This document shows positions 1,700-18,983 of a DNA stretch of 28,238 nt, piece by piece. Each line of letters begins with the position of its first letter. Within the stretch, counting starts at the first letter, position 1. Source of the stretch: a virus; the IMG/VR virus record IMGVR_UViG_3300049617_000455, positions 1 to 28,238 of that record. The stretch is one strand, 5' to 3'. The position numbers and the translations under genes were made by a program. The notes below the pieces were generated by a model that was given only the letters and a program-made list of their open reading frames with translations, did no database searches and was not told where the DNA came from.

Positions 1700-1954
1700 A
1701 CAGCAAACTCCGGCCTGTGCGCGAAGCCGGGCATAGATCGGTGCCCGGACGAGCGGCGCAAGGTGACAGTGAAGGATTGCCGGACCTTGAACAGGAACGG
1801 CGGCAATAGCGCGTTTCAAAACGCTGACCATTCAGCCAACACTTCTCGCGAAGATCAACCCCAAAAGCTTCTGCAACTGTTAAGCGCGGCAGTGTTTTGG
1901 CCTCAGAAGGCTATTGACACGGCGTTTTCTGAATTCAATCTGCCACGCAATGGA

Positions 1955-3589: not shown

Positions 3590-3659
3590 GCAGGGCCGGC
3601 ATCGGTTGCCAGGACGCGGTGCTGCTTGCGGAATTGCCCCGCCAAAGTGTGGAGTTTTC

Positions 3660-5051: not shown

Positions 5052-5434
5052 CCGAAGAGTTGCAGGATACACCTGATCTGGAGGCACGCGCCGCATCGCT
5101 GGAGCAGCGACTGGCCGATATGGAGGCGAGTACGACGGCCCGGTTGATTCGGGCTGAGCTGAAGGCTGAGGCCGTTCGGGCCGGGATGGTCGATCTGGAC
5201 GGACTCAAATTGGTCGATACCAGCGGGCTGGTGTTGAGCGAGCAGGGCGAGGTCGAGGGTGCTGCGGGATTGATGAACAAGTTGCGGCGCAGCAAGCCGT
5301 GGCTGTTCGGCGCCGCATCGTCCAGCAGCGGCGCCGCTGCGCCTCCGGCGCAGCCGCCGGCGGCGAAACCGGCGACGGCGATGAGCCATGCCGAGTGGCA
5401 GGCCGCACGCGCCGAACTTCTAAAACGGCGCTGA
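5048..5434 (+). CDS. Putative capsid scaffolding protein
   Basis: A 128-aa acidic-to-mixed protein. Residues 5-45 are predicted helical and coiled-coil-like (LEARAASLEQRLADMEAS then LIRAELKAEAVRAG). A middle segment GMVDLDGLKLVDTSGL recalls GP20/DUF4355-like scaffold proteins, and an Ala/Pro/Ser linker precedes a short basic tail ending ELLKRR, the kind of C-terminus that contacts coat protein. The start overlaps the portal stop by ATGA. Position between portal and major capsid, length and composition all fit a scaffold, but there is no diagnostic motif, so the function is inferred from context. Confidence 0.7.
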   Translation: MTEELQDTPDLEARAASLEQRLADMEASTTARLIRAELKAEAVRAGMVDLDGLKLVDTSGLVLSEQGEVEGAAGLMNKLRRSKPWLFGAASSSSGAAAPPAQPPAAKPATAMSHAEWQAARAELLKRR

Positions 5435-5548: not shown

Positions 5549-6871
5549 ATGGGCATTCAGAATTTTCCGGCCGCTCTGCAGCCGATCATCCAGCAGGGGT
5601 TTCTGGAGCGGGAGTTCGGCCACGCGCTGCAATCGCGGCTGGGCTATCGCGACGTGGCGGAGCGGGAGGAGTTTTCGGTTGGCATTGGCGAGACGCTGAC
5701 CAAGACGCGGGCCGGGCTGAAGCCGAGCGTGACCGTTCCGCTGGCGCCGGCGACCAATACCAATCTCGATAACGGTCTGGTGCCGCAGGGCTTCAATGTA
5801 GAGCAGTACACCATCACGCTGAACCACTACGCGGCGACCACCGACCTGAACATGGTGACCAGTCGCGTGGGCATTGCCTCGCAGTTTCTACTGAATGCAG
5901 CGATCAACGGCGAACAGGCGGCGCGGAGCCTGGACGAGCTGGCACGCAATGCGCTGTTCGCCGCGTATTTCGCCGGGAATTCGCGGGTGCGGACGACGCT
6001 CGGCGCCGCTGGGCCGGCGGTGGCGGTGGACGATGTACGGGGATTTCAATATGTGTTCGTCAACGGCGTGCAGACGCCGGTGGGCGGGGCGGCCTCGCTG
6101 ATGGTGACGGTGGGCGGGAATGCCTACACGCTCATCGGGACGGCGATCGATGCGGTGAACGCAAGCACCACGCCGGGTGGGATTTCCGGGGTACTTACAT
6201 TTTCCGGTTCTGTGACTGTTGCTGATGGTGCGGCCGGCAACACGGTCACGGCGGCGACGGCGAGCGCCATCATGCGGCCCAATCAGCGCGGGAACACGTC
6301 GGCACTGGTGGGCGGCGACGAGTTGACAATGGCGACGCTGCTCGATGCCGTATCGACGCTTCGGCTGAACGCAGTGCCCGAGATCGACGGCGTGTTCAAC
6401 TGTTATCTCGATCCGGTATCGGCGCGCCAGCTGTTTGCGGACAACGATTTCCGCCAGCTCTTTCAGGGCGCTACCTCGGCGAACCAAGTGTTCCGCAAGG
6501 GGCTGATCAACGAGTTTCTCGGGCTGCGCTTCATCCCGACGACGGAGGCCTACGTGACGCCGCATCCGGACATCGCCGGGGCGGTGGTACGCCGGCCGAT
6601 CATCTGCGGCAAGGGCGCACTGGTGGAGGGCGACTTTGCCGGAATGGCGGAGGCGGATGTGGCGCCGAAGGATTCCATTATTTCCATGGTGGACGGGGTG
6701 GCGATGGTGACGCGCGAGCCAATTGACCGGCTGCAGCAGATCATCGCGCAGAGCTGGTACTGGATCGGCGGGTTCTGCACACCGTCGGACCTGACCACCA
6801 ATCCCTCCACCATACCGACGGCGACGAATGCGGCGTTCAAGCGGGCGGTGATGGTCGAGCATATGGGCTGA
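5549..6871 (+). CDS. Major capsid protein with an inserted domain
   Basis: A 440-aa protein with GAGGA 6 bases upstream of its ATG. The N-terminal 155 residues include LVPQGFNVEQYTITLNHYAA and DELARNALFAAYFAG. After residue 250, ELTMATLLDAVSTLRLNAVPEIDG, YLDPVSARQLFADNDFRQLF and LINEFLGLRFIPTTEAYV match the pattern of HK97-fold coat proteins of the N4 gp56-like type. Residues about 158-240 look like an extra beta-rich insertion (VFVNGVQTPV, LMVTVGGNAYTL, GVLTFSGSVTVADG), which could be a surface-exposed I-domain-like or Ig-like module. No separate decoration protein or prohead protease gene is seen nearby. The 114-base leader before the gene holds no other ORF of note. Confidence 0.87.
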   Translation: MGIQNFPAALQPIIQQGFLEREFGHALQSRLGYRDVAEREEFSVGIGETLTKTRAGLKPSVTVPLAPATNTNLDNGLVPQGFNVEQYTITLNHYAATTDLNMVTSRVGIASQFLLNAAINGEQAARSLDELARNALFAAYFAGNSRVRTTLGAAGPAVAVDDVRGFQYVFVNGVQTPVGGAASLMVTVGGNAYTLIGTAIDAVNASTTPGGISGVLTFSGSVTVADGAAGNTVTAATASAIMRPNQRGNTSALVGGDELTMATLLDAVSTLRLNAVPEIDGVFNCYLDPVSARQLFADNDFRQLFQGATSANQVFRKGLINEFLGLRFIPTTEAYVTPHPDIAGAVVRRPIICGKGALVEGDFAGMAEADVAPKDSIISMVDGVAMVTREPIDRLQQIIAQSWYWIGGFCTPSDLTTNPSTIPTATNAAFKRAVMVEHMG

Positions 6872-6922: not shown

Positions 6923-7300
6923 ATGGCCTTCATTGAGTCGGAGCGCACCGATATTCGCCGTTATTGCGGATTTCCGGCCTACGGGGCCGGGAGTACGGGG
7001 TTTCAGGGGTGGCGGTTCTATCAGGTCTATGGGCTGCTCGAATATCGGCTGAATTTTCTCACCGGCTCGGAGGAGGCGGTGGTGCGGCAATATCTGCTGA
7101 CATTGTCGCAGTTGGAAACGGCGATTCCGGCTGCGAGCGCAGGGCTGGATACGGCGCAGGCTTCGGTGTGGATACGCAATGCGGCGGAGCTTCGCGAGCG
7201 AACCGGATTGTTCGATGACTGGCGCAGACGTTTATGCGCTTTTCTTGGGATTCCGCCGGGACCTGGGCTGGGTGACGGTGGCGTGGCGTTGGTGGTTTGA
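6923..7300 (+). CDS. Putative head-tail connector protein
   Basis: A 125-aa, largely helical protein placed directly after the major capsid gene, where connector proteins that dock under the portal (gp6/gp15 type) normally lie. GGAG at 6909-6912 precedes the ATG by 10 bases. Visible blocks are FIESERTDIRRYCGFPAYG, LLEYRLNFLTGSEEAVVRQYL, a heptad-like stretch around LSQLETAIPAASAGLDTAQ, and ELRERTGLFDDWRRRLCAFLGIPP. There is no signal peptide or membrane segment. The assignment is from position, size and helical character rather than a named motif. The stop is 2 bases before the next ATG. Confidence 0.6.
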   Translation: MAFIESERTDIRRYCGFPAYGAGSTGFQGWRFYQVYGLLEYRLNFLTGSEEAVVRQYLLTLSQLETAIPAASAGLDTAQASVWIRNAAELRERTGLFDDWRRRLCAFLGIPPGPGLGDGGVALVV

Positions 7301-7302
7301 GC

Positions 7303-7947
7303 ATGCGTGGCCGCACATTGCAGAACGTGGTTCAGCGTGGGTTGGGGCGGGCCGCGCTGATGGTGGGGCAGGATTGCCACGCCTATCGCCCCAACTCGGT
7401 GGATAGGCCTCTGACCGAGGAAAACCGGTATCTACGGTTGCAGGCGGCGTTCATACGACCGGGACGAAGTGCCGTGCGGGCGATGGATTACGGCCAGGCT
7501 GTCTGGGAGGGCATTTTTGACGCGGCCTACACGCGCCCGGGAGATTATCTGGTGCGCGTTGCGGATGGTGCGGTTTGGTTCATTGCCGGGCAGCCGGAAT
7601 TGGAGCCGATCATGTGCGTGCAGGCCGAACGGGTGGTGGCGTTCTCCCGCCCGGCCATAAGTGCGACCGCGGCAGCTTATGGGGGCGTTGTGGCGGCGAC
7701 GGCCATTCCGCTGCTGGCGCAGTGGCCGGCGAGTGTTTTGGATGGCGGCGGTGGCGGCATCGGGCAGGCGGGCTTGCCCGGCGATCCGCGCGGCGGGAAC
7801 TGGCGGGTGTTGCTCCCCGCGCTCCCGGGCGTGCTGCTCAGGGGCGGCGATCTCATGAGCGATGATCTCGGCCGCAACGGGGTGGTGGCGACGGCTGAAC
7901 TGACCGCGCTCGGATGGCGCCTGACGGTACGCCAGGCGACGAGCTGA
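7303..7947 (+). CDS. Putative neck / head-completion protein
   Basis: A 214-aa protein starting at ATG 7303, just after the preceding stop; an in-frame TTG at 7297 is less likely. The N-terminus is basic (RGRTLQNVVQRGLGRAA). The core is beta-rich with YLRLQAAFIRPGR and TRPGDYLVRVADGAVWFIAGQPELEPIMCV, and the end reads LGRNGVVATAELTALGWRLTVRQA. The 'loaded value, then evidence of use' layout (PGDYLV...WFIAGQ...PIMCV) resembles stopper or minor structural proteins of Mu-like and lambdoid neck modules. It lies between the putative connector and the putative tail terminator, which supports a neck role. No catalytic motif is visible. Confidence 0.5.
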   Translation: MRGRTLQNVVQRGLGRAALMVGQDCHAYRPNSVDRPLTEENRYLRLQAAFIRPGRSAVRAMDYGQAVWEGIFDAAYTRPGDYLVRVADGAVWFIAGQPELEPIMCVQAERVVAFSRPAISATAAAYGGVVAATAIPLLAQWPASVLDGGGGGIGQAGLPGDPRGGNWRVLLPALPGVLLRGGDLMSDDLGRNGVVATAELTALGWRLTVRQATS

Positions 7948-7958
7948 GGAGGCGCCCT

Positions 7959-8789
7959 ATGGCCGATCAATCGGATGTGGAGAGCGCACTGGTGGGGGTC
8001 ATCTCGGCCGTTCTGTATCCGCAGGGGGTGGCAGGGCCGAGCCTGCCGGGGCCGCTGTGTCGCGTGTATCGCGGCTGGCCGAATGCCGCGGCGCTGGATG
8101 CCGATCTGGCGGCGGGTGTTCTGAACGTGACGGTCTTCCCGCAGCCTGGGCATGCGGCGAATACGACGCGTTGGGCCACGGAGACGGAAATTCCTGCGCC
8201 GGTTCTGCCGCAGCTCAACGTATCAGTATCGGGGACGAGCGCTACCTTTTCAGGTAGCGCCGTGGCAGGGCAGATTGCCGGGCTGCTGGTTGACGGGATT
8301 GCGGTGGTGCACCGGACGACGTTGGCCGATACGCCGGCGCTGGTGGCTGCCGTGCTGGCCAGCCAGATACGCACCCAGCGGATTGCGCTGCTGGCCGGGA
8401 CATCGGTGACGGTGCCAGGGGTTGGGCTTCTGCTCGGCCGGGTGGTGGCGGATCAGACGACCGTGGTTGCAACACGACGGCAGCGGCAGGGGTTTCGGAT
8501 CACCTTCTGGTGCCCGGATCCGGCAAGCCGTGACGTGGTGACCGCCACCGTGGATTCGGCCCTTTCGGCGCAGACGTTTCTCCCATTGCCGGACGGGACG
8601 GCGGGGCGGCTGCGGTTCGCGTCCACATCGACATTCGATCAGAGCGAAGATGCCGGGCTGTATCGGCGCGATGTTGTCTACGACGTCGAGTATGCGACGA
8701 CGCTGACAAGTTTACTGCCGGAGATGATTTTTGGCGACCTTACGGTGGCGCCCGATGGCGGCACGGCCGCCCTGAGTCGGCTGGGATGA
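7959..8789 (+). CDS. Putative tail terminator / neck protein
   Basis: A 276-aa protein with a strong AGGAGG at 7947-7952, 6 bases before the chosen ATG; this fixes the start over the longer open frame. The N-terminus is helical (DVESALVGVISAVLYPQG). The protein then has ALDADLAAGVLNVTVFPQPG, a segment around LVDGIAVVHRTTLADTPALVAAVLAS, and a C-terminal block with RRQRQGFRITFWCPDPASRD, FLPLPDGTAGRLRFAS and LYRRDVVYDVEYATT. This last block resembles tail-terminator proteins, which cap the tail tube and sheath and join head to tail. Location immediately before the sheath genes agrees. The call is from fold-like pattern and context only. Confidence 0.55.
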   Translation: MADQSDVESALVGVISAVLYPQGVAGPSLPGPLCRVYRGWPNAAALDADLAAGVLNVTVFPQPGHAANTTRWATETEIPAPVLPQLNVSVSGTSATFSGSAVAGQIAGLLVDGIAVVHRTTLADTPALVAAVLASQIRTQRIALLAGTSVTVPGVGLLLGRVVADQTTVVATRRQRQGFRITFWCPDPASRDVVTATVDSALSAQTFLPLPDGTAGRLRFASTSTFDQSEDAGLYRRDVVYDVEYATTLTSLLPEMIFGDLTVAPDGGTAALSRLG

Positions 8790-8802
8790 TGAGGCTTGGA
8801 AG

Positions 8803-8955
8803 ATGGGGAAAGACATGAATTTTCATCTGGTGGTTGTCCGCGCCTTCGCAGCATACGCGAAGGGCTGCGTGCTGACCGACGCAGCTGAGATGAGTGCCGT
8901 GCTGGCCGGAGAATTCTCGCGCCACGTGGTGCGGGTTCTGGTGAAAGGAGCCTGA
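8803..8955 (+). CDS. Small 50-aa protein upstream of the sheath gene
   Basis: A 50-codon gene between the putative terminator and the sheath gene. It reads MGKDMNFHLVVVRAF, then CVLTDAAEMSAVLAGE, then RHVVRVLVKGA before TGA at 8953-8955. GAGG at 8791-8794 is 8 bases before ATG 8803; a second ATG at 8815 also has GGGGAAAG upstream and would give 46 aa. The stop is 3 bases before the sheath ATG and its end supplies the sheath ribosome binding site. Mu-like phages carry a comparably tiny protein (DUF2635-type) just before the sheath; whether this one is related is unproven. The DAAEMSAVLAGE...RHVVRV pattern looks like a real fold. Confidence 0.65.
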   Translation: MGKDMNFHLVVVRAFAAYAKGCVLTDAAEMSAVLAGEFSRHVVRVLVKGA

Positions 8956-8958
8956 GCC

Positions 8959-10530
8959 ATGCCGATTGTTCAGCAAGGCAACATCAACACCACCGCGCTG
9001 GTGGTTCCCGATCTGTATGTCCAGATCGTTCCGCCGCAGAATCTGGTTCTGAACGGTGTGCCGACCGATGTGGTCGGCATGGTCGGCACGGCGAGCTGGG
9101 GCCCCGTGGGGCAGCCGGTGATTATTGCCACGATGGCGGACTACGCGCGCAATTTCGGCCCTTTGCTGGGGCGGAAATACGATATGGGTACGCAGGTGGC
9201 GACGGCCGTGCAGCAGGGGGCTGCGAATTTTCGCTGCGTTCGGGCGAGCGATGGGACAGATATGGCGGCGGCCTTCGAGGTGCCGTCGACGACTCTGGTG
9301 CTGACGGCGCTCTATTCGGGCAGCCTGGGCAACCAGATCGTCGTGACGCTCACCACCGGATCGAAAGGCGGCACGTGGCGGCTGACGGTCGCACTGCCCG
9401 GACTCCAGCCGGAGGTTTTCGACAATCTCGGCGGTACGGGCACGGCATTCTGGTCCGGGCTTGCCGCAGCGGTGAACACCGGACAGGGGCCGCAGCGTGG
9501 GCCGAGCCAGATATTGGTGGCGCGTGACGGGGGCACCACGACGGCGCCGGCGGCGTTCAGCTGGCCGTTCACCACGGGTATCCAGGGCAGCGACGGCGCG
9601 ACCGCGGCGAGCGCAATGACGCTGGTAGGCGTTGACACGATTCCGCGTCAGGGCATGTACGCCTTGCGCGGGCAGGGATGCAGCATCGGGGTTCTCGCCG
9701 ACGCGGATGATGCCACGCAGTATACGACGCAGGCCGGGTTCGGCTTGTCCGAAGGTCTGTATATGATCCTGACCGGCCCAGCCGGGGACGGGATCGGCAA
9801 CGCCGTTGCGGCCAAGCAGAGTGCGGGGCTGGATTCCTATGCCTGCAAGCTGATGTTCGGAGACTGGATCTGGTGGAATGACCAGGTGAACCAGACATTG
9901 CGGGTGGTGAGTCCACAGGGATTCGTCGCCGGGCGCCTGGCGAACCTCTCCCCGGAGCAGTCGAGTTTGAACAAGCCGCTTTATGGTGTCGTGGGGAGCC
10001 AGAAATCCGGGACTCCGGGTTCGGGGCAGAGCACGTCGTATTCGGCGGCTGAACTGGGCGCTCTGCTGCAGTCGGGCATCGACGTGATTGCCAATCCGCA
10101 GCCGGCGGGCAGCTTCTGGGGTGTGCGGGGTGGACATAATGCCTCGAGCAACGCGGCCGCGAATGGCGACAACTATACCCGGATGACGAACTACATTGCC
10201 GCCACGCTGGCGGCCGGGATGGGGCAGTATGTCGGCCAGGTGATCAATACGAATCTGTTCCGGCGAATACGAGCGACCCAGCTGAGCTTTCTCGCAAACA
10301 TGCTGAGCCAGGGCATGCTCGGCAGCACCGATGGCAGCCTGCCATTCAGCGTGATCTGCGACATCAGCAACAATCCGCTCTCGCGCACCGGGCTGGGATA
10401 CGTGCAGTCCGACGCTCAGATTCAGTATCAGGCTATCAACGAGAAGTTCATCGTGAACATGGAAGGCGGCCAGACCGTTCAGGTGGAGCGGCAAACTCTG
10501 CCGAACGCTGCCGGCGGATTGGCGGCGTAA
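8959..10530 (+). CDS. Contractile tail sheath protein
   Basis: A 523-aa protein of ordinary sheath length, with GGAG 8 bases upstream. Sheath subunits wrap the tube and contract to drive it through the host envelope. The N-terminus has GVPTDVVGMVGTASWGPVGQPVII and FGPLLGRKYDMGTQVATAVQQGAANFRCVR, the standard opening of Mu gpL-like sheaths. The C-terminal part has NYTRMTNYIAATLAAGMGQYVGQ, NTNLFRRIRATQLSFLANMLSQGMLG and a final beta hairpin INEKFIVNMEGGQTVQVERQ, which builds the handshake with neighbouring subunits. A variable, beta-rich insertion lies around residues 110-225. The presence of this gene makes the particle a myovirus rather than a siphovirus. Confidence 0.93.
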   Translation: MPIVQQGNINTTALVVPDLYVQIVPPQNLVLNGVPTDVVGMVGTASWGPVGQPVIIATMADYARNFGPLLGRKYDMGTQVATAVQQGAANFRCVRASDGTDMAAAFEVPSTTLVLTALYSGSLGNQIVVTLTTGSKGGTWRLTVALPGLQPEVFDNLGGTGTAFWSGLAAAVNTGQGPQRGPSQILVARDGGTTTAPAAFSWPFTTGIQGSDGATAASAMTLVGVDTIPRQGMYALRGQGCSIGVLADADDATQYTTQAGFGLSEGLYMILTGPAGDGIGNAVAAKQSAGLDSYACKLMFGDWIWWNDQVNQTLRVVSPQGFVAGRLANLSPEQSSLNKPLYGVVGSQKSGTPGSGQSTSYSAAELGALLQSGIDVIANPQPAGSFWGVRGGHNASSNAAANGDNYTRMTNYIAATLAAGMGQYVGQVINTNLFRRIRATQLSFLANMLSQGMLGSTDGSLPFSVICDISNNPLSRTGLGYVQSDAQIQYQAINEKFIVNMEGGQTVQVERQTLPNAAGGLAA

Positions 10531-10542
10531 GGAGACCATCCA

Positions 10543-10971
10543 ATGGCAAGCAACACATTTTCGGTCGGGCGGGACTGCCAGCTGGTGGTGATGGGGCCGT
10601 TCGGGCGGGTCGATCTGACGCATGTGACAGGATTTGAGAGCCGCCAGGTGACGGCGGCGATCCGGGTGGACCGGATCGACGGTGTTCAGCTTGCGGCGGA
10701 GCTTCCCAAAGGATGGGATGGCAGCTTCGAACTGGAGCGAGGAAGCTCGGCGGCCGATGACTTCATTGCGGCGATCGAGGCCGCGTTTTTTGCCGGCAGT
10801 GCTGTGCCTTCGGGGACGCTCTATCAATATGTCTCGGAGACCGACGGCTCGACCTCGACTTATCAGTACGATGGCGCAGCATTCAAGCTTTCCCAGGCAG
10901 GGGCATGGAGGGGCGACCAGAGTGTCAAACAGAAGCTGGATTTCTTTGCCAGTACGCGTAAGCGAATCTGA
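10543..10971 (+). CDS. Tail tube protein
   Basis: A 142-aa protein following the sheath gene by 12 bases, with AAGGAG 8 bases before its ATG. Position, size and the beta-rich sequence fit the inner tube subunit of contractile tails (Mu gpM / P2 FII type). Visible segments are FSVGRDCQLVVMGPFGRVDLTHVTGFES, VDRIDGVQLAAELPKGWDGSFELERGS, and LYQYVSETDGSTSTYQYDGAAFKLS, with a final KQKLDFFASTRKRI. The stop overlaps the next start as TGATG, so the chaperone gene is translationally coupled to it. Confidence 0.85.
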   Translation: MASNTFSVGRDCQLVVMGPFGRVDLTHVTGFESRQVTAAIRVDRIDGVQLAAELPKGWDGSFELERGSSAADDFIAAIEAAFFAGSAVPSGTLYQYVSETDGSTSTYQYDGAAFKLSQAGAWRGDQSVKQKLDFFASTRKRI

Positions 10972-11312
10972 TGCAGACACCATCGGAACGGATCGTGGCG
11001 GCAGCGGCAGCCGGTGAGGCCGTGACGGATGGCCTGGGGCGAGTGCTGGTGCTGCGCCGACCGACGGCGCTCGATCGGCTGCGGCTGTTCAAGGCGGCGG
11101 GCCCGGTGCTGGCCGGTAATCCACCGTGGCTCGGTATGGCCGTGGTGGCGTGCAGTGTGGTGGCGATCGACGACGTGCCGGTTCCTGCGCCTGCCAATGA
11201 GATGCAGATCGAGGCGCTGGTGGCACGGCTGGGCGATGCAGGTATCACGGCGGCGGCGGCGGTGCTCGCTGTGGCGGCCACGCCGGTTGACGACAATCTC
11301 GCAAAAAACTGA
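10971..11312 (+). CDS. Tail assembly chaperone, short (G-type) product
   Basis: The zero-frame product is 113 aa, ending AATPVDDNLAKN at TGA 11310-11312. It starts in a TGATG overlap with the tube gene. The body has ERIVAAAAAGEAVTDGLGRVLVLRRPTALDRLRLFKAAGP, a pattern found in tail assembly chaperones, and a helical middle with IEALVARLGDAGITAAAAVLAV. In tailed phages the G protein coats the tape measure and helps the tube polymerise. The gene's last codons, GCA AAA AAC, form a slippery heptamer that gives a longer product (see 10971-11482). Confidence 0.8.
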   Translation: MQTPSERIVAAAAAGEAVTDGLGRVLVLRRPTALDRLRLFKAAGPVLAGNPPWLGMAVVACSVVAIDDVPVPAPANEMQIEALVARLGDAGITAAAAVLAVAATPVDDNLAKN

Positions 11313-11482
11313 GTCGGCACCCCGATCTGGTCGATTGCCTGTACCTGTGCCGGAACGGGGTGCCTTTCGATGTGGCCTTCAGCCTGCCGGAGGATGAGCG
11401 GTTGGGGTGGGTGGTGGCACTTGGGCGAATGGATGGCGGAGAATTTGATTTCGCAGCCATGGAGTGGAGGGAGCGCCAATGA
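10971..11482 (+). CDS. Tail assembly chaperone, -1 frameshift (GT-type) product
   Basis: A -1 slip at A AAA AAC (11303-11309) bypasses the TGA at 11310 and adds 57 residues read from 11309, giving a 170-aa fusion. The added part begins LSRHPDLVDCLYLCRNG, continues PFDVAFSLPEDERLGW and ends MEWRERQ at TGA 11480-11482. The extension has no start codon or ribosome binding site of its own, stays open to a stop that overlaps the next ATG as ATGA, and reads like protein. These are the hallmarks of the G/GT arrangement conserved in many tailed phages, where GT recruits tube subunits to the tape measure. Frameshift efficiency cannot be judged from sequence. Confidence 0.85.
11303..11364 (+). promoter_or_regulatory. 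Programmed -1 frameshift signal: slippery heptamer plus hairpin
   Basis: The heptamer A AAA AAC (11303-11309) is in the X XXY YYZ register of the zero frame. After a 6-base spacer, GGCACCCCG (11316-11324) pairs perfectly with CGGGGTGCC (11356-11364). Inside it, after an A-A mismatch, TCTGG (11326-11330) pairs with CCGGA (11350-11354) with one G-U. That makes a stem of about 14 pairs at the canonical spacing for stalling a ribosome over the slip site. The TGA immediately after the heptamer may add to the pause. Confidence 0.85.
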
Positions 11483-11754
11483 GAAGCCCGCCTGTCGGTG
11501 AGATTGTGCGGGCGGCGCTGTTGGCGGCCGGGCACGAGCTGGCTGCGTCATTGCGGGCAACGTATGGTGGCGTGGCGGTACGGGTGACGGAGGATGAAGC
11601 AGGGGTGGTTGTGGCAACTTCCGATCCTGGCCTGAATGCCCGACATCGGGGTTTGCCGGGTGCACCGCCGCAGGCAGTTCTGGGCGATGTGGCACAGCAT
11701 GGGACTTACGTTCTGCAAAGTGTCGCGGCGGCACTGGAAGATGGGTTGGCATAA
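11479..11754 (+). CDS. Hypothetical 91-aa tail protein
   Basis: ATG 11479 is chosen over the upstream in-frame GTG because GGAGGGAG (11466-11473) lies 5 bases before it and because it overlaps the stop of the frameshift product as ATGA. The N-terminus is helical (VGEIVRAALLAAGHELAASLRATYGG). It is followed by a beta-like stretch VAVRVTEDEAGVVVATSDPG and a helical end, YVLQSVAAALEDGLA. I do not recognise the family with confidence. Its place between the chaperone and the tape-measure candidate suggests a tail assembly or completion role. The stop overlaps the next ATG as TAATG. Confidence 0.6.
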   Translation: MRSPPVGEIVRAALLAAGHELAASLRATYGGVAVRVTEDEAGVVVATSDPGLNARHRGLPGAPPQAVLGDVAQHGTYVLQSVAAALEDGLA

Positions 11755-12692
11755 TGGAGCAAGTCCACACGATCGGAATTCGTCTGGCTTTGGACGATGG
11801 TGTTTCGGCCGGCATGGAACTGATGGCGGCAGAGATGAATGCATTGGAACGGGCGTTGGCTGGGCTGGAGCGCAATGGCGCCGCGGCCCGCGTGCGTATG
11901 GCCGACGTGGCGCCTGCGGTTGAGCCGACGCTGGTCGCGATGCCTGAGAGTTCGGTCCCAGCTTCGGCGCCATCGCGCGTGCGAGAGCCGGCTTTGGTGC
12001 CTTTGCCACGCGCTGCACCCCCGGTGGCTCCGACGATGACTGAACGCGCTGATGTGGCCAAGTCTCCCTCAGTGGCCAGGCCGGCGAGCCTCGTGCGGGT
12101 GATGGTGCCGACGCAGGCGCAGGTCCCGCCGGCGCGGCCAAAGCCGCCTATTGCTGAGCGGGCGGTATCGGCGCCATTGCCGGCGATCGCGGCACCGGTG
12201 ATGCCTGCGTTTCCCAAGGTGCAGGTTTTCGCGTCTGGACCAGAGACGGTTCGCCCCGTCACGGCGCCCTCTCCGGTGTCGGCGCGGGCAGCGCCGCAAG
12301 CGTCGCCACAGAGGTCTGTCATATCGGCCGAACTGGTTGCGCGGCGTTCGGTTCAACGGTGGCCGGATGGGCCCGTTGAGGTGTTACCCGCGGCTCCCGT
12401 GTGGAACCCACCGAAGCCGCCTCAGCCTCGGCCGGCGGCCTCGGGTGCAGTGGATCAGAAAAGCGCCATGCGCGACGCGGTTGTTATGACGCCACCCCGG
12501 CCGATGGCACCACCGCCGGCGCCGGAGGGGCGAGGTGGGCCGATGGGTGGGGACGTGTTTCTCGACGGGGTGAAGCTAGGTCACTGGGTGGTGAACACGC
12601 TTGGACGCATGGCGTCTCGCCCGCAAGGCGGCGCGACCGCATTCGACCCTCGGATGAGCATTGCCTGGCCGGGAACCTTGCAGGGGGGATGA
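11754..12692 (+). CDS. Tape-measure-position protein, short and Pro/Ala-rich
   Basis: The 312-aa protein sits exactly where the tape measure belongs: after the G/GT chaperone and before the gpU-, gpX- and gpD-type genes. It is far shorter than usual (P2 and Mu tape measures are roughly 700-800 aa). Residues 1-45 look helical (MELMAAEMNALERALAGLERN). Residues about 50-260 are dominated by Pro, Ala, Val and Arg, with many PP and PxP pairs and no coiled coil or membrane segment, so they are probably disordered or extended. The last 52 residues look folded: GGDVFLDGVKLGHWVVNTLGRMASRP, then FDPRMSIAWPG. The start overlaps the previous stop. Either this is a reduced tape measure setting a very short tail, or the true tape measure has been lost or replaced. 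Context is strong; the molecular role is inferred. Confidence 0.6.
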   Translation: MEQVHTIGIRLALDDGVSAGMELMAAEMNALERALAGLERNGAAARVRMADVAPAVEPTLVAMPESSVPASAPSRVREPALVPLPRAAPPVAPTMTERADVAKSPSVARPASLVRVMVPTQAQVPPARPKPPIAERAVSAPLPAIAAPVMPAFPKVQVFASGPETVRPVTAPSPVSARAAPQASPQRSVISAELVARRSVQRWPDGPVEVLPAAPVWNPPKPPQPRPAASGAVDQKSAMRDAVVMTPPRPMAPPPAPEGRGGPMGGDVFLDGVKLGHWVVNTLGRMASRPQGGATAFDPRMSIAWPGTLQGG

Positions 12693-12695: not shown

Positions 12696-13400
12696 ATGGC
12701 GACGAACCTCGTATTGGGGGGTGTGCTGTTCCAGAGCTTCGAACTGCCCGAGCGGATCGACTGGGGTGGGGCGCAGCGCCTCGCCCTCCACCGGCTTCCT
12801 GGGGGTGGTCGCGTGATCGATGCGATGGGGCGCGACGATGGGCGCATCACCTGGTCGGGCGTGTTCAGCGGGCCGGATGCCGGCGACCGGGCGCGACTGA
12901 TCGATCTGATGAGGGCCGCCGGGAACGTGCTACCATTAAGCTGGGATAGTTTTTTTTACTCCGCGGTGATCGACAGTTTCCGTGCGGAATATGCGCAGCT
13001 GAACTGGATACCGTATCGGATCAGTTGCACTGTGCTGCGCGACGAGGCGCAGTCCGTGGTGACGGCGGCTCTTTCGCTCGGCACCGCGGCATTGAGCGAT
13101 CTGGCGGCGGCTGGTGGCGCTGGCGTTGATGTTTCGGCAGCGACAGCGGCGGTTGGCGCGACGGGAGCGACCATACGGGGCAGTACAGCCTATGGTGCAG
13201 CGGTGCTCGCGGTGGGTGACGTTGCAGCTTCACTTGATTCGGCGGTGTCTGGCGGCGAGGCGGCCCTGGTTGCGGCTGATGTTGCGAGCTCAGCGGGGCT
13301 TGAGCAGGCGGCTGCGATCTGTGGGCAACTCGCCGGACTCGTGGCGGCACGCGGATTCGTGGAGCGTGTTTCAGTCAATTTGGCAAATGCGAGCACCTGA
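12696..13400 (+). CDS. gpU-like tail protein with Ala-rich C-terminal extension
   Basis: A 234-aa protein starting 3 bases after the preceding stop. Residues 1-115 form the recognisable part: GGVLFQSFELPERIDWGG, VIDAMGRDDGRITWSGVFSGPDA, LIDLMRAAGNVLPLSWDSF and IPYRISCTVLRDEA. This order resembles P2 gpU-type tail proteins (a beta domain then a 'change in position, then value' helix) and phage baseplate proteins adjoining the hub. Residues 120-234 are rich in Ala, Gly and Val, helical and repetitive (AATAAVGATGATIRG, LVAADVASSAGLEQAAAICGQLAGL). This half is unlike gpU and may be a helical bundle or a tape-measure-like segment. The function is inferred from pattern and place. Confidence 0.55.
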   Translation: MATNLVLGGVLFQSFELPERIDWGGAQRLALHRLPGGGRVIDAMGRDDGRITWSGVFSGPDAGDRARLIDLMRAAGNVLPLSWDSFFYSAVIDSFRAEYAQLNWIPYRISCTVLRDEAQSVVTAALSLGTAALSDLAAAGGAGVDVSAATAAVGATGATIRGSTAYGAAVLAVGDVAASLDSAVSGGEAALVAADVASSAGLEQAAAICGQLAGLVAARGFVERVSVNLANAST

Positions 13401-13653
13401 GCGACCGTTTCGTCACGCCACCAATTTGGCGGGCTGTTGTGCGATTGTGATGATCACGAGGCAGTTCGCCACGTCGCTTCGGTTCCCGACAAACACGTGA
13501 GTTTATCGCAGTCTTGAGGATGATCGCTTCTGACAGGCGAAGCGGTTCTTTTTCTCGTGATTTGTTTCGGAGAGCAATTTCATCGTCCGGTTGGTTCGAC
13601 CCAAAACGATATTGTTCCCAGCGAGTTCTCAAAACGTTTCTAGCGGGGGCGCG
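13401..13653. other. 253-base low-GC gap inside the tail operon
   Basis: Neighbouring genes overlap or abut, but here the operon is interrupted by a clearly AT-richer stretch with no convincing ORF. A small hairpin, CGCCA-ccaatt-TGGCG, lies at 13416-13431 just after the gpU-like stop, and a terminator-like hairpin at 13523-13553. No good promoter to restart transcription could be identified before the gpX gene. Confidence 0.6.
13523..13553 (+). terminator. Terminator-like hairpin inside the tail operon
   Basis: CGCTTC (13525-13530) and GAAGCG (13539-13544) form a 6-bp stem, extendable by a T-G and an A-T pair, with an 8-base loop. It is followed by TTCTTTTT (13546-13553). This matches a weak intrinsic terminator on the plus strand. 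Being in mid-operon it may attenuate expression, or be read through by an antiterminated polymerase. Confidence 0.45.
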
Positions 13654-13839
13654 ATGCAGAGCGTGACGGTGGCCGGCGGCAATCTGTTTGAGATTGCCGC
13701 CGCGGAACTCGGCGATGCCACGCAATGGCTGAGGATCGCCCAGCTCAACGGTATTTCAGATCCAATGCTCAGCGGCGTCGTGACTCTGTTGATTCCTGAT
13801 GCCGATCCGACGGCCGGCGGTGGGGTCGCTGCACAATGA
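13654..13839 (+). CDS. LysM-like tail protein X
   Basis: A 61-aa protein. The frame is open from 13591 but ATG 13654 begins the recognisable LysM-like motif: MQSVTVAGGNLFEIAAAELGDATQWLRIAQLNGISDP followed by LLIPD. The pattern of 'hydrophobic-T-V-x-x-G-D-x-L-x-x-I-A', 'W-x-x-I-A-x-x-N' and 'L-x-I-P' is that of P2 gpX / LysM modules, which sit by the baseplate hub and may touch peptidoglycan. It overlaps the next gene as ATGA, and gpX directly before gpD is the standard order. The upstream ribosome binding site is only a run of G (around 13644). Confidence 0.75.
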   Translation: MQSVTVAGGNLFEIAAAELGDATQWLRIAQLNGISDPMLSGVVTLLIPDADPTAGGGVAAQ

Positions 13840-14870
13840 GTTTTTCGGCGGCGGTACTCCGCCAACCCCGGTTGCTGGTTCTGGCCAACGGGGTTGCGTT
13901 ACCCGGCGTGCTCGATGCCGAGGTGGTCAACACCAGCCATTGCGGTGCCGACCGGTTTCACGTGCGCGCCGCCCTGGGTGCGGATTTCGTTGGCATGTCG
14001 ATGCTTGTGGATGATCCGTCGATCCGCGTGGAGGTGCAGGCCTCTCTGGATGGCGGGCAGAGTTTCGTTAGCCTGATCCAAGGCAGTGCCGATCAGCTGG
14101 AGCTCGATCCGATCGGTGGCTTGCTGGAACTGAGCGGGCGCGATGATTCGGCAGGGCTGATCGAGGCGCGAACCGGGGAGATTTTTGCCAACCGAACATC
14201 CAGCGAGATCGCCGGCCTGTTGGCTGGCCGGCATGGCCTGCTGGCCGATGTACAGGCGACGACAATGCCTGTGGGGCGCTATTGGCAACTCGAACACGAC
14301 AGCCTGGTATTGGACCAGTTCGGTCGGAACACCACGGAATGGGACCTCCTGGTCATGCTTGCGCGGCAGGAGGGTTTCGACGTTTGGGTCGGCGGCGGAA
14401 CGCTGCATTTTCGGCCACCGGACGCAGGCACCGCACCGGTTGTGTCACTTGGGCCCGGCGATATGGTGGCGCTGCGGCTCGATCGGACGCTGACGCTTGC
14501 GGCGAGCATTTCGGTGACGGTAAAAAGCTGGAACAGTCTCAAAGGGGCGGCGACCACGACGACGGTACAGCGCAGCACGGGCGGTGTGGCGCGCAGCTAC
14601 GTCTATGTGGTGCCCAATCTGACACCTGAAGCCGCGCAATCCTTTGCCCAGTCCCGATTGAGTGAGCTGATCCAGCACGAGCGTGTGCTGGTCGCTGAGA
14701 TGCCTGGCGAACTCGTGTTGATGCCGCGCGACCGGATTGTGTTCGAAGGCAGTATGACGGGCTTCGACCAGAACTATGTGATCGACCGGGTGGAACGGCA
14801 GATCTCCATGGCGCAGGGGTTCACGCAGAGCGTGCATGCCAAGAGCAGCAATGCAGATGGGAGTGATTGA
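13836..14870 (+). CDS. Baseplate hub protein (late control gpD-like)
   Basis: A 344-aa protein of the P2 gpD / Mu gpP type, the trimeric hub that joins the tube to the central spike. Visible blocks are LVLANGVALPGVLDAEVVNTSHCGADRFHVRAAL, LIQGSADQLELDPIGGLLELSGRDDSAGLIE, EWDLLVMLARQEGFDVWVGGGTLHFRPP and LTLAASISVTVKSWNSLKG. The C-terminus has SFAQSRLSELIQHERVL and DQNYVIDRVERQIS. The SGRD-DSAGLI block followed by ARQEGFDVWV is characteristic of the family. The start overlaps gpX by ATGA and the stop overlaps gpV as TGATG, so three baseplate genes are coupled. Confidence 0.87.
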   Translation: MSFSAAVLRQPRLLVLANGVALPGVLDAEVVNTSHCGADRFHVRAALGADFVGMSMLVDDPSIRVEVQASLDGGQSFVSLIQGSADQLELDPIGGLLELSGRDDSAGLIEARTGEIFANRTSSEIAGLLAGRHGLLADVQATTMPVGRYWQLEHDSLVLDQFGRNTTEWDLLVMLARQEGFDVWVGGGTLHFRPPDAGTAPVVSLGPGDMVALRLDRTLTLAASISVTVKSWNSLKGAATTTTVQRSTGGVARSYVYVVPNLTPEAAQSFAQSRLSELIQHERVLVAEMPGELVLMPRDRIVFEGSMTGFDQNYVIDRVERQISMAQGFTQSVHAKSSNADGSD

Positions 14871-15388
14871 TGGACCTGCTGCTCAACGCCATCAAGGCGC
14901 ATGCCGGGGCGCTGGACCGGGCCCAGGGCCAGCCACGGTTTGGCGTGGTGGTCAGTGTCGATCCGGCGCGTTACGCGGCCCGGGTGCAGTTACAGCCCGA
15001 GGGTGTGATGACGGGATGGCTGCCGGTGCTTTCCGGCTGGGTTGGCTCGGGCTGGGGCATGGCCTGCCCCCCGAGCGTGGGCGACCAGGTGATGGTGCTG
15101 GCGCAGGAGGGCGATGCCGAAAACGGTGTTATTGCCGGGCGCAGTTTCAGCGATCTGGCGCGCGGCCCCGCTGCACCGCCGGGGGAGTTCTGGCTTGTCC
15201 ATGCGTCGGGATGCTTTCTGCGCCTGCAAAATGACGGGACGGTGCGGGTGCAGGGTGATCTGCATGTGGTTGGCAATGTGTTCGTGACCGGCGATGTGAG
15301 CGACGGGCATGGGGCTTTGTCCAATCTTCGCGCTGTGTATGACGTGCATGTGCATGGCGGTTCGGTGGGACCATCGCCGCAGGACTAG
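14870..15388 (+). CDS. Baseplate central spike protein (gpV-like)
   Basis: A 172-aa protein starting at ATG 14870 in a TGATG overlap with gpD. GVVVSVDPARYAARVQLQPEGVMTGWLPVLSGWVGSG and PPSVGDQVMVLAQEGDAENGVIAGRSFS form the OB-fold of gpV/gp45-type spikes. The C-terminal half (LRLQNDGTVRVQGDLHVVGNVFVTGDVSDG) is a beta-prism repeat, and the tip carries YDVHVHGG with His160 and His162, the HxH iron-binding apex motif seen in P2 gpV and phi92 gp138. The spike punctures the outer membrane. Length is slightly below P2 gpV, consistent with a short needle. Confidence 0.88.
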   Translation: MDLLLNAIKAHAGALDRAQGQPRFGVVVSVDPARYAARVQLQPEGVMTGWLPVLSGWVGSGWGMACPPSVGDQVMVLAQEGDAENGVIAGRSFSDLARGPAAPPGEFWLVHASGCFLRLQNDGTVRVQGDLHVVGNVFVTGDVSDGHGALSNLRAVYDVHVHGGSVGPSPQD

Positions 15389-15529: not shown

Positions 15530-15901
15530 ATGAACGATTTGTGGCACCAGTTCAGCGCTGATCTCGCGGTCGGGGTGACGGGCGATCTGGCTGTTGCGAG
15601 TGGTCCGTTGTTGGGCCAGCAGCGGGTTCTGCGCCGTTTGCTGACCAATCCGGGCGATTACATCTGGGCACCCGATTACGGTGCCGGGCTCGCCCAGTTT
15701 GTCGGTGTGCCAGCAGATGCGGCGCAGATCCGCGCGGTGATCCGCAGTCAGATTTTCAAAGAGGCCGCGGTGGCGCGCCAGCCGGAGCCGATCGTTGACG
15801 TTGAGATTGACGGCGGCGGCACAGTTTACGTGCATGTGCGGTACGCAGATGCGACCACGGGCGCCACGCAGGTTTTGTCGTTTTCCGTCGGTAATGGGTG
15901 A
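15530..15901 (+). CDS. Baseplate wedge protein (gpW / gp25-like)
   Basis: A 123-aa protein with GGGGA 5 bases before its ATG. It is a P2 gpW / T4 gp25 homologue, the wedge protein that starts sheath assembly at the baseplate. Visible: QQRVLRRLLTNPGDYIWAPDYGAGLAQFVG, where the LLT.PGDY.W.PDYG.GL pattern is the gp25 core. It continues QIRAVIRSQIFKEAAVARQPEPIVDVEID and a final beta strand, VYVHVRYADATTGATQVLSFSV. The next gene starts after a 6-base gap. gpV, gpW, gpJ, gpI is the canonical P2 order. Confidence 0.9.
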   Translation: MNDLWHQFSADLAVGVTGDLAVASGPLLGQQRVLRRLLTNPGDYIWAPDYGAGLAQFVGVPADAAQIRAVIRSQIFKEAAVARQPEPIVDVEIDGGGTVYVHVRYADATTGATQVLSFSVGNG

Positions 15902-15907
15902 GTGATT

Positions 15908-17032
15908 ATGCAACTGCAGCTACAGGGCTTTACAACGCTGGTTGGCAATGCTGCGGCGGCGGTGCAGGGCGCGGCCGGACAATTGCTGGATTTGACGGTC
16001 GGCTCCACTCTGCGGGCGGTGTTGGAAGCCAATGCGGCGATGGCGCTCTGGCTGCAATGGCTGATTGTGCTGGTGTTGCAGACGACCCGTGCGGCCACCA
16101 GCAACGGGACGGACCTCGACAGCTGGATGAATGATTTTGCGGTGGTTCGGCTGCCCGCGGTTGCGGCCAACGGCGTGGTGAGCTTTTCGAGATTCGTGCC
16201 TTCCACGGCTGCCTTGGTTCCGGTTGGTACTGTGGTGAAGACGGCCGATGGGACGCAGTCCTTCGCGGTCGTTCAGGCTCCGAGCAATGCGTCGTTCAGT
16301 GCGAGTCTGGGCGGATTCATGCTGGCGGTTGGCACCGCCTCGGCGGATGTTCCGGTGAGTGCGCTGGTGCCAGGTGTGGCGGGGAATGTTCAGGCGGGTG
16401 CTGTGACGTTGATCGCGGCGGCCATTCCTGGGGTGGACCTTGTGGGGAATGCGGCGCCATTTCTTGACGGGCAGGATGCCGAAAGCGACCCTGCGTTACG
16501 GGCACGGTTTCAGAATTATCTGGCCAGTCGTTCGCGCGCCACGAATGTTGCGGTGGGTTACGCCGTGAGTTCCATCCAGCAAGGGCTGCAATACGCCATT
16601 CAGGAGAATGTTATGCCGGATGGCACGGCGCGGATGGGTAGTTTCGTGGTGACGGTCGACGATGGCAGCGGCAACCCCTCGGCTGCGCTGATCGCTGCTG
16701 TGACGGCGGCTGTTGACGCGGTTCGCCCGCTGGGATCGAGCTTTGGCGTTATGCCGCCCATCGTGGTGCAAGCCGCCGTTTCGATGGTGGTGAGCGTGGG
16801 GCCCGGGGTGGTGCATGCCGATGCGGCGCAGGCGGTGGCGGCAGCCGTGATCGCCTATATCAACGCTCTGCCTGTTGGTGCGCCGCTCGCCTGGTCACGC
16901 CTCACGCAGGTGGCTTATGACGCCCAGCCGGCGGTGACCAACGTGACGAGCGTGTTGCTCAATGGAGCAACGGCTGATCTGGCGCCTGGAATCGCCGGGG
17001 TGGTGAAGGCTGGCGCGATCGCGGTGAACTGA
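15908..17032 (+). CDS. Baseplate protein J-like
   Basis: A 374-aa protein from ATG 15908; an in-frame GTG at 15902 is possible but too close to the GGGTG. It is P2 gpJ / Mu gp47-like, a wedge component joining the sheath-starting baseplate to the fibres. Motifs: LLDLTVGSTLRAVLEANAAMALWLQWLI, TSNGTDLDSWMNDFAVVRLPAVAANGVVSFSR, then beta-rich repeats (VPVGTVVKTADG, VSALVPGVAGNVQAGAVTLI). DGQDAESDPALRARFQNYLASRSRATNVAVGYAVSS is the strongest diagnostic of the family, and a last domain holds VTVDDGSGNPSAALIAAV. Length is close to the 300-380 aa usual for J. Confidence 0.9.
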   Translation: MQLQLQGFTTLVGNAAAAVQGAAGQLLDLTVGSTLRAVLEANAAMALWLQWLIVLVLQTTRAATSNGTDLDSWMNDFAVVRLPAVAANGVVSFSRFVPSTAALVPVGTVVKTADGTQSFAVVQAPSNASFSASLGGFMLAVGTASADVPVSALVPGVAGNVQAGAVTLIAAAIPGVDLVGNAAPFLDGQDAESDPALRARFQNYLASRSRATNVAVGYAVSSIQQGLQYAIQENVMPDGTARMGSFVVTVDDGSGNPSAALIAAVTAAVDAVRPLGSSFGVMPPIVVQAAVSMVVSVGPGVVHADAAQAVAAAVIAYINALPVGAPLAWSRLTQVAYDAQPAVTNVTSVLLNGATADLAPGIAGVVKAGAIAVN

Positions 17033-17033: not shown

Positions 17034-17690
17034 ATGACGGGTGATGAGGAGGACATGATCGGCCGGCTGCGTGCCGTATTACCGAGGCATTGGTTTGGTG
17101 ACGCAGCGCTGGTGCTGGACGGGGTTCTGGCCGGCCTGGGTGCGACCGCATCGTGGGCATGGTCGTTGCTGCAGACGGTCGGTGCGCAGACCAGGCTCAT
17201 GACGGCAACGGGCAGTTTTCTTGATATGGCGGCGGCGGATTTTTTTGGATCGCGACTGCTGCGTGCCCCAGCACAGAGCGATGCAGCGTTTCGTGTCACC
17301 CTCGGCCGGGAATTGCTGCGCGAGCGAGGCACGCGGGCGGCACTGACCAAAGTTCTGGGCGATTTGACCGGGCGGGCGCCTGTGGTGTTCGAGCCGGCGC
17401 GGCCAGCCGATACCGGCGCATGGGGGTTGGCACTTGGTTACGGCGCGGCTGGTGGATGGGGCAGTCTGAGCCTGCCATATCAGTGCTTCGTGACGGCCTT
17501 CCGGCCAAATGGTTCGGGCATTGCGCTGGTCAGCGGCTGGGGGCAGTCGGGCGGCGGCTATGGTGCCGGCGTGCTGGAATATGCCTCGCTGGCCGACGTG
17601 GCGGGACAGGTGACCGATGCGGACATCAATGCAGCGATCGCGGGCGTGACACCGACCGCGGCGATCGCGTGGACCCGCATCACCGATTGA
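17034..17690 (+). CDS. Tail protein I-like (baseplate-fibre linker)
   Basis: A 218-aa protein just after gpJ. The position matches P2 gpI / Mu gp48, which sits at the baseplate periphery and holds the fibres. The N-terminal part (DMIGRLRAVLPRHWFG, LVLDGVLAGLGATASWAWSLLQTVGAQTRLMTATGSFLDMAAADFFG) and LRAPAQSDAAFRVTLGRELLRERGTRAALTKVLGDLTGR fit this family. Residues 120-185 are Gly/Ala/Trp-rich and probably beta (YGAAGGWGSLSLPYQ, VSGWGQSGGGYGAG). A second ATG at 17055 follows AGGAGG but with only 2 bases of spacing, so 17034 (GGTGA 6 bases upstream) is kept. Confidence 0.78.
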   Translation: MTGDEEDMIGRLRAVLPRHWFGDAALVLDGVLAGLGATASWAWSLLQTVGAQTRLMTATGSFLDMAAADFFGSRLLRAPAQSDAAFRVTLGRELLRERGTRAALTKVLGDLTGRAPVVFEPARPADTGAWGLALGYGAAGGWGSLSLPYQCFVTAFRPNGSGIALVSGWGQSGGGYGAGVLEYASLADVAGQVTDADINAAIAGVTPTAAIAWTRITD

Positions 17691-17729
17691 CGGGGTGTGG
17701 CGTGTTGTCAAGTCAGTCGAGGGAAGTTC

Positions 17730-18983
17730 ATGGATCGTAACATTGTCTATGCCGGCAGTATTCCTTTGGATACCGACCTGTTGGGCACAAATCGGAACGC
17801 CATGGTGGCGTTGGGTGCGCTGATGGGCGCTGTGCTCGGACAGGGTGTGGTGGTGGATGGACTGGCTGTGGCGCCAGCCAGCCCTGCGGGATTGGGGGTG
17901 GTTGTGGCACCGGGCAGCATCACCCAGCTCTCGCCGGTGGATGAGAACGCCTATGGATCGTTGGGCGTGGACACAGCGGGGAGCGTGATGAAGATGGGTG
18001 TTGCCCTTGCCAGCACCGCCTTCGCGCTGGCGGCGCCGACGGCTTCCGGGCAGTCGGTGAACTACGTCATTCAGGCGACGTTTTCCGAAACCGATACGAA
18101 CCCTGTTGTGTTGCCGTATTATAATGCGGCGAATCCCGCCCAGCCGTTTCTCGGCCCGGCCAATTCTGGCGCCGCCCAGGCGACGCTTCGACAGCAGAGC
18201 GTGCAACTCCAGTTGAAGGCTGGAGCGCCCGCGATCGCCGGTAGCCAAGCGACGCCACCGGTTGATGCCGGCTGGACCGGGCTTGCCGTGATGACGGTGA
18301 ATTATGGGCAAACGCAGATAACGGCGGCAGATATCGCGGCACTGCCAACCAATCAGAATTTGCCGTTCAAATTACCCGATCTGCGGCCGGGCTTTGCGAA
18401 CATCGAGGCTTTTGGTGCCGACGGCAATTTCATCGTGCCCAGCGGCGTGTCCAGGGTGAGGGTGACGGTCATTGGTGGTGGGGGTGCGGGCGGCACGCAC
18501 GCGACTCTGCCGGGGGGCGGGGGCGGTTCGGGCGGCCAGGCCGTTACGGTGATCGGGGGTCTTGCCGCCGGGGCGGTGATTCCGGTGAGCGTGGGCGCGG
18601 CGGGTGCGGCGCCGGGGACGCCGGGCAATGGCGGCAGCGGCGGGACGTCGAGCTTCGGCGGCTACGTCTCGGCGACGGGCGGGACCGGCGGCATTGGTGG
18701 AACGGCACTGGTCACCAGCGCCGGCGGTTCGGGTGGCAGCGGGGTGGGCGGGCTGGTGAACTATGCGGGAAGTTGGGGAACGGACGGGATCACCGCCACG
18801 GGGCGCGGTGGTGATGGGGGCGGTCCGGGCAATGGGCGCGGGACCAGCGGCCTCATCCAGGGCGTTACGGCGCCGGGGTGGGGCGGTGGCGGCGGCGGTG
18901 GTGGCGCCAGCGTGGCGGGCGGCGGGGGCACCGGCGCACCGGGCGGCAATGGTGGATCCGGTCTTGTGATCGTGGAGTTTTGA
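17730..18983 (+). CDS. Tail fibre protein with glycine-rich C-terminal domain
   Basis: A 417-aa protein from ATG 17730, chosen for GAGGGAAG 4-7 bases upstream. The N-terminal ~220 residues (MDRNIVYAGSIPLDTDLLGTNRNAMVALGALM, then VVVAPGSITQL and YVIQATFSETDTNPVVLPYYN) form a plausible baseplate-attachment and shaft region seen in several alphaproteobacterial phages. From residue 234, FIVPSGVSRVRVTVIGGGGAGG opens a glycine-rich domain running to the end, with many GG/GGG runs and ending GLVIVEF. Such domains occur in fibre tips, including the polyglycine-II adhesins of T-even relatives, where loops between glycine helices bind receptors. It is followed 4 bases later by a small possible partner. 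Confidence 0.8.
   Translation: MDRNIVYAGSIPLDTDLLGTNRNAMVALGALMGAVLGQGVVVDGLAVAPASPAGLGVVVAPGSITQLSPVDENAYGSLGVDTAGSVMKMGVALASTAFALAAPTASGQSVNYVIQATFSETDTNPVVLPYYNAANPAQPFLGPANSGAAQATLRQQSVQLQLKAGAPAIAGSQATPPVDAGWTGLAVMTVNYGQTQITAADIAALPTNQNLPFKLPDLRPGFANIEAFGADGNFIVPSGVSRVRVTVIGGGGAGGTHATLPGGGGGSGGQAVTVIGGLAAGAVIPVSVGAAGAAPGTPGNGGSGGTSSFGGYVSATGGTGGIGGTALVTSAGGSGGSGVGGLVNYAGSWGTDGITATGRGGDGGGPGNGRGTSGLIQGVTAPGWGGGGGGGGASVAGGGGTGAPGGNGGSGLVIVEF

Follow-up and report, generated by a model that had tools for sequence, protein, structure and literature searches.

A short tape-measure-slot protein with a spacer-like middle in an integrase-less, contractile-tail gene cluster of Acetobacteraceae

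Introduction

The tape measure of phage lambda corresponds to about 0.15 nm of tail per residue. In RcGTA, a gene transfer agent (GTA), the tape measure g11 (Rcc01694) has about 216 aa (a 113-aa helix followed by segments of 83 and 20 aa) for a tube of five discs plus one distal disc at a pitch of 3.83 nm (PMC7296036), and the tail is 49 nm long (PMC9662315). For the AAB phages, tails of 156 nm have been given as a mean of the group, not of phiKX1 alone (PMC8566455). Contigs 1–4 of the Sphagnum core virome match Acetobacteraceae genomes and carry gpV/W/J domains and metabolic flanks with no integrase matches; in the available part of that paper they are called temperate or degraded prophage by the authors, and neither a discussion of the tape measure nor a test of inheritance appears there (PMC12142844). 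In the open-access literature, we found no description of a contractile GTA, of a GTA in Acetobacteraceae or Acidiphilium, or of a disordered proline-rich tape measure.

The window analyzed here is the whole 28,238-nt stretch of the IMG/VR virus record IMGVR_UViG_3300049617_000455, which an initial annotation, made from the letters alone, had described as a contractile-tail phage with an unusually short, Pro/Ala-rich protein in the tape-measure slot.

Gene organization of the window

The tail genes are arranged in the order sheath, tube, G/GT chaperone, slot gene, DNA_circ_N/gpU-like, LysM/gpX-like, gpD, V, W and J, and the slot gene thus stands between the G/GT chaperone and the gpU/distal tail genes, which is the place of a tape measure. 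The following features have been assigned.

1–1831, minus strand: Hint_2-domain protein and RlpA-like DPBB protein, upstream of terL
2204–3589, plus strand: terminase large subunit (E 7e-99)
3606–5051, plus strand: portal
5048–5434, plus strand: scaffold-like protein
5549–6871, plus strand: major capsid protein, 71–85% identity in 40 Acetobacteraceae genomes
8959–10530, plus strand: contractile sheath (phrog_23, E 2.5e-41)
10543–10971, plus strand: tail tube (phrog_12993), assigned by position and synteny
10971–11312, plus strand: G-like tail assembly chaperone (phrog_20383), syntenic with phiKX1 and Emery
11303–11309, plus strand: slippery heptamer A AAA AAC for a predicted -1 frameshift from G to GT, just before the chaperone stop, phase checked against the ORF at 10971
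11309–11482, plus strand: T extension in the -1 frame, 57 residues (LSRHPDLVDCLYLCRNGVPFDVAFSLPEDERLGWVVALGRMDGGEFDFAAMEWRERQ, then the stop)
11464–11754, plus strand: 96-aa ORF between T and the slot gene; an ORF of like size is there in L002 and Limobrevibacterium
11754–12692, plus strand: short tape-measure-slot protein, 312 aa, with a helix at residues 14–51, a disordered Pro/Ala/Val-rich middle (about 51–260) and a conserved C-terminal motif (about 263–312)
12696–13400, plus strand: DNA_circ_N/gpU-like tail protein (phrog_21362)
13591–13839, plus strand: LysM/gpX-like small baseplate protein (PHROG match)
13836–14870, plus strand: baseplate hub, gpD-like (Pfam/PHROG match)
14867–15388, plus strand: baseplate gpV-like OB spike (Pfam, E 4e-11)
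15530–15901, plus strand: baseplate gpW/gp25-like protein (PHROG match)
15902–17032, plus strand: baseplate gpJ-like wedge (phrog_6)
17034–17690, plus strand: gpI-like protein (phrog_26379)
17697–18983, plus strand: tail fibre
19914–22466, plus strand: beta-helix tail spike
22607–25624, plus strand: beta-helix tail spike
25952–28000, plus strand: GDSL esterase-domain protein, belonging to the cluster in Acidocella as well

The A_AAA_AAC site is present in the sequence and the frameshifting event at 11303–11309 is predicted from it; because the site is in phase and followed by a T extension, the machinery that normally handles the tape measure appears to be intact. A T domain like that of the window directly precedes the DNA_circ_N gene in L065 and L187. 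A frameshift within the DNA_circ_N/LysM gene, considered since one PHROG family spans both, was dropped because relatives have two separate genes. A DPBB gene likewise precedes terL in Limobrevibacterium gyesilva, which may therefore carry the element at a common insertion site.

The slot protein and its relatives

The ORF at 11754–12692 has no internal stops, and the same slot is occupied by a 742-aa protein (BCZ76066) in the syntenic Komagataeibacter phage phiKX1 and by a 999-aa protein (gp16) in the syntenic Brevibacillus phage Emery, both of which match PHROG tape-measure families; the ORF and this synteny bear out the placing of a 312-aa gene in the tape-measure slot. Residues 51–260 (210 residues) contain 47 Pro, 39 Ala, 29 Val, 18 Arg and no Cys. 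The highest Kyte-Doolittle mean over 19 residues is only 1.24, which argues against a membrane helix, and AlphaFold2 with a 36-sequence alignment predicted helices at 14–51 and 272–288 only, with the remainder as coil (mean pLDDT 60, pTM 0.26). In this model the ends look folded and the middle disordered, and the annotated Pro/Ala-rich middle lacking a coiled coil or membrane helix, between folded-looking ends, agrees with composition, hydropathy and model. A long alpha-helical, coiled-coil or membrane-helix middle is thus absent by model and hydropathy; since such a middle is typical of tape measures and not strictly defining, we have filed the protein as a reduced, variant tape measure. The protein had no match in Pfam and PHROG at E<=1, nor by tblastn against 50,697 phage records.

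Two circumstances had been named in advance as telling against the reading in the initial annotation, a long tape measure elsewhere and a truncation in a single strain. The window has no second, long tape measure, its other long ORFs being the two beta-helix spikes and the GDSL esterase. Truncation in one strain is ruled out by IMG/VR, which was scanned with the tube and DNA_circ_N proteins and gave about 150 loci: in more than 60 distinct relatives (distinct loci with a full-length gene, partial genes of <240 aa excluded) the slot protein is short throughout, with 244–413 aa (median 331), and is Pro/Ala-rich, poor in hydrophobics and alike at both termini. The N-terminal consensus is DAYxIGIRLALDNGVSxG and the C-terminal one GDVFLDGxRVGRWMSxxLxREAxRPxxGxTGFDPRxxPAWPGxxQG, which reads GDVFLDGxxxGxW...FDxRxxxxWPG in the window's protein (residues about 263–312). 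In the C-terminal alignment A1 (38 sequences), D, G, G, W, D and G are invariant.

Five distant relatives (L147, L152, L154, L155 and L158) have slot proteins of 501–667 aa with an ordinary hydrophobic middle and related ends; of those that were scanned, two (L154 and L158) have matches to PHROG tape-measure families and two (L147 and L152) have none. The N-terminal HMM of the short proteins matches these five long tape measures with E 1e-5 to 1e-10 in a database of six. By hhalign, the N-terminus was aligned to the long tape measures with Prob 96.8 and the C-terminus, as the initial annotation had proposed for checking, with Prob 93.7, and in either case 0 of 200 column shuffles reached the score; the homologous regions are short, about 45 and 50 aa. 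The corresponding segments in the window are as follows.

11754–11903, plus strand: N-terminal segment homologous to long tape-measure N-termini (TIGIRLALDDGVSAG), by HMM and hhalign
12540–12689, plus strand: C-terminal anchor homologous to long tape-measure C-termini, by HMM and hhalign

The profile comparisons show the 312-aa protein to be a reduced tape measure, whose ends are, as judged from this homology, descended from the ends of ordinary ones. Since the long relatives have ordinary middles, the family would be a tape measure with an exchanged or decayed middle. In the Arg/Trp-rich (Acidiphilium-type) proteins and those of a second sub-lineage, the N-terminal motif is not recognizable and the C-terminus alone is.

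In L069 (2061–2627), the slot middle is Arg/Pro-rich, resembling a frame-shifted Pro/Ala-rich stretch, and the C-terminus is in frame; this reflects either an assembly error or a spacer that tolerates a change of frame. In L167, L169 and L178, the gap from chaperone to DNA_circ_N is 5.4–6.5 kb, which represents an insertion or a different slot.

Distribution and inheritance of the cluster

Forty Acetobacteraceae genomes have been examined in detail. The slot protein is present in all of the 39 in which the slot was readable, in the slot itself in 33 and relocated in six. In the six cases (Acidocella and kin), the chaperone is followed directly by DNA_circ_N, and the slot gene stands at the cluster end, some 16 kb downstream, after a holin-like gene; an earlier view that Acidocella clusters have no tape measure was dropped when the C-terminal profile found it there. 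Single E-values of the relocated copies are 1e-6 to 5e-3, and two of the six lie on another contig that is taken to adjoin. The identification is nevertheless good, because the position is common and the C-termini resemble those of the in-slot proteins of the sister group.

In six isolates, the cluster of about 22–26 kb consists of structural and lysis genes only and lies directly between housekeeping genes, with flanks of groES/groEL, kup and rpmI/rplT-type genes as recognized by reading the sequences. A GH108 endolysin was confirmed in the Acidocella cluster, and Acidocella KAb 2-4 has the cluster at the same chromosomal locus as Acidocella aromatica, with a common left flank. In the six clusters read, neither a repressor nor replication genes were recognized. 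Among the matches listed, none was a tyrosine integrase closer than 40 kb (18 genomes) and none a serine recombinase closer than 30 kb, the nearest of the latter being about 32 kb away. Probable genuine prophages occur in the same hosts, one (G172) with a slot protein of 781 aa and an integrase 25 kb away and another (G061b) with one of 692 aa. The integrase is only partly informative as a control for a true prophage, since the majority of the distant relatives are also without one nearby, because they carry the same short-slot element.

In Acidocella and in Acidisphaera sp. L21, terL is immediately preceded by genes for an XRE regulator, a GcrA-like HTH protein and a 135–186-aa protein (L220, G001, about 8388–9509; L226, G005, 6986–8292), and a relative of the gene for the 135–186-aa protein precedes terL in A. 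rubrifaciens. These three proteins are candidate regulators of the element.

Of 397 Acetobacteraceae genomes sampled, 162 have the tube, usually as a single copy, and two or three copies occur in some genomes. Across the class, 385 genomes were sampled and only 2 have the capsid; the Acetobacteraceae search found these two as well. In the samples searched, the cluster is confined to Acetobacteraceae. In one bin (bin-2488, G242), two near-identical inverted copies lie on one 81-kb contig (C145, 22625 and 58043), possibly an assembly palindrome, and a third on C50.

The cluster tree has 24 of 33 splits in common with the rpoB tree (random mean 0.15, maximum 2), and the Mantel correlation was positive for seven proteins. 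When the second sub-lineage (other Acetobacteraceae) was added, 32 of 48 splits were common with rpoB, and this sub-lineage was monophyletic in both trees. In close genome pairs, dN/dS of the structural genes neighboring the slot is 0.03–0.33, mostly 0.03–0.2, and the capsid (0.035–0.13) is among the most constrained genes. The cluster has therefore co-diversified with Acetobacteraceae under purifying selection. Since this is combined with absence of an integrase, we consider the particle to be domesticated and host-encoded, most likely of the gene-transfer-agent kind. The description as a contractile-tail phage holds for the contractile tail genes; an ordinary phage it probably is not, being vertically inherited and integrase-less.

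Taken together, a reduced tape measure with a near-neutral spacer, in an integrase-less vertical cluster encoding a domesticated particle most likely of GTA kind, is the reading we prefer, with a probability of about 0.78. With its caudovirion-like structural genes, endogenization and host-congruent phylogeny, the features used for GTA inheritance in PMC9662315, the element can be called a putative GTA; packaging of mostly random host DNA, never of the whole own genome, and delivery to other cells also belong to the GTA criteria (PMC9662315). By analogy, the particle would move DNA. The stronger proposal, a family-wide contractile-tailed Acetobacteraceae GTA with an origin apart from RcGTA, BaGTA and BhGTA, in which decay would have left the tape measure with its two anchored ends and an almost sequence-free spacer between them, we put at even odds.

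Terminase, portal and capsid are present and conserved, so the cluster does not fit the definition of a tailocin. PBSX of Bacillus subtilis is contractile, headed and vertically inherited, as here, and differs in having a long tape measure and a host of a different phylum. A PBSX-like killer, or another domesticated headed particle that transfers no DNA, would equally be contractile, host-encoded and vertical, with full head genes and no integrase, and the spikes and GDSL esterase could serve in binding targets; the strong constraint on the capsid fits a function needing packaged DNA, and we regard this explanation as possible but rather unlikely. More doubtful is an ordinary lineage of temperate phages, short-tailed and still infectious, with integration genes located outside the windows or encoding an unknown recombinase. 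It would suit the multiple copies in some genomes, the viral entry in IMG/VR and the existence of related true prophages; the congruence with rpoB, the one chromosomal locus in two Acidocella species and the lack of recognized repressor and replication genes in the six clusters read speak against it.

Evolution of the middle and tail length

In close genome pairs, pN/pS was 0.60–0.87 for the slot middle, 0.31–0.52 for the C-terminus and 0.11–0.31 for the N-terminus of Pro/Ala-rich (PA-type) proteins. Across 45 sequences, the GARP-minus-FYMINK content of the middle is closely correlated with regional GC (rho 0.91), and the slope of second-codon-position GC is 1.24 for the slot middle versus 0.12 for the capsid gene. 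According to host, the middle of orthologues is Pro/Ala-rich, Arg/Trp-rich (Acidiphilium-type) or Asn/Lys/Ser-rich (AT-richer hosts), while the C-termini are related. The middle has the properties of a disordered spacer joining two constrained ends, near-neutral and with a content set mainly by host GC.

The initial annotation had offered, besides a very short tail, an extended proline-rich ruler, in which the PA-rich middle would be a selected polyproline-II-like strand of about 0.3 nm per residue replacing the helical ruler. Pro in PA-type middles is 0.183 against 0.135 expected from base composition, above expectation in 64 of 65, and hydrophobics are depleted (0.106 against 0.147) with Cys almost absent; in PA-type middles, base composition leaves nothing further to explain than this modest Pro excess and hydrophobic/Cys depletion, which together with the open frames indicate some residual selection. 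The near-neutral middle, its tracking of host GC and the Arg/Trp-rich and Asn/Lys/Ser-rich orthologues in the same slot speak against a proline ruler as a selected device, and we consider it highly improbable. Decay of cryptic prophages with a merely pseudogenized tape measure, which the neutral middle and the differing slot lengths of sisters would suit, is scarcely credible against the purifying selection on tail, head and baseplate genes, the conserved ends, slot frames that are open though 239 stops are expected over 65 genes if unconstrained, and retention of the slot gene even where relocated.

Because the near-neutral, GC-driven middle behaves as a spacer, a short tail, of some 35–65 nm, is likelier than a proline ruler. 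Besides the lambda value, we calculated about 0.11 nm per residue for RcGTA (our own arithmetic on figures in PMC7296036) and about 0.21 nm for the AAB phages (the 156 nm group mean divided by the 742-aa slot protein of phiKX1), and under these three calibrations 312 aa would correspond to a tail of about 33–66 nm. The disordered, near-neutral spacer has taken the place of the long hydrophobic or helical middle of an ordinary tape measure, and the reduced protein may still measure the tail. In the proposed working, the C-terminus would anchor on the baseplate hub, GT would coat the chain, and the tube would polymerize around it for as long as any chain is left. A short soft chain may suffice, so that the sequence of the spacer would hardly matter.

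The sister hosts G024 and G167 have slot proteins of 419 and 252 aa and form a natural length pair, with a difference that would not be expected of a precise ruler. Should the slot protein determine length, the tails of these sisters ought to differ; otherwise length is set differently. Since there are dozens of natural slot variants, from 244 to 444 aa, the relation of ruler length to tail length is directly testable. This family separates what tape measures must keep, their two ends, from a dispensable middle sequence, and a contractile Acetobacteraceae GTA with a decayed tape measure would, if true, be a natural experiment on the minimal needs of a tape measure.

Comparison with known systems

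Contigs 1–4 of the Sphagnum core virome are probably the same element, likened by their description and not by sequence (PMC12142844). RcGTA g11 is similar, again by description and not by sequence, in being a short tape measure in a vertically inherited phage-derived particle, and differs in its non-contractile tail and its helical, needle-like trimer. The element is not RcGTA-like (Rhodogtaviriformidae): the RcGTA-type GTA_TIM domain (PF13547) was absent in 24 of 25 hosts, the single match (G005) being weak and on another contig, and a contractile sheath is present. GTAs and viriforms in general (Rhodogtaviriformidae, BaGTA and BhGTA; PMC9662315) share an endogenous structural cluster, absence of integrase, co-diversification with the host and restriction to one bacterial family. 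Tails of the GTAs in PMC9662315 are non-contractile, whereas that of the Acetobacteraceae element is contractile as predicted from its genes, and the cluster is a candidate third alphaproteobacterial lineage of domesticated particles, contractile-tailed and found in acidophiles and other Acetobacteraceae. With the tape measures of contractile phages (PHROG families, phiKX1 and Emery gp16), the window's protein has in common the slot, the GT partner and, through relatives of that class, the homology of its ends; it differs from them in having at most half the length, no hydrophobic or helical middle, and a middle that is near-neutral and GC-driven.
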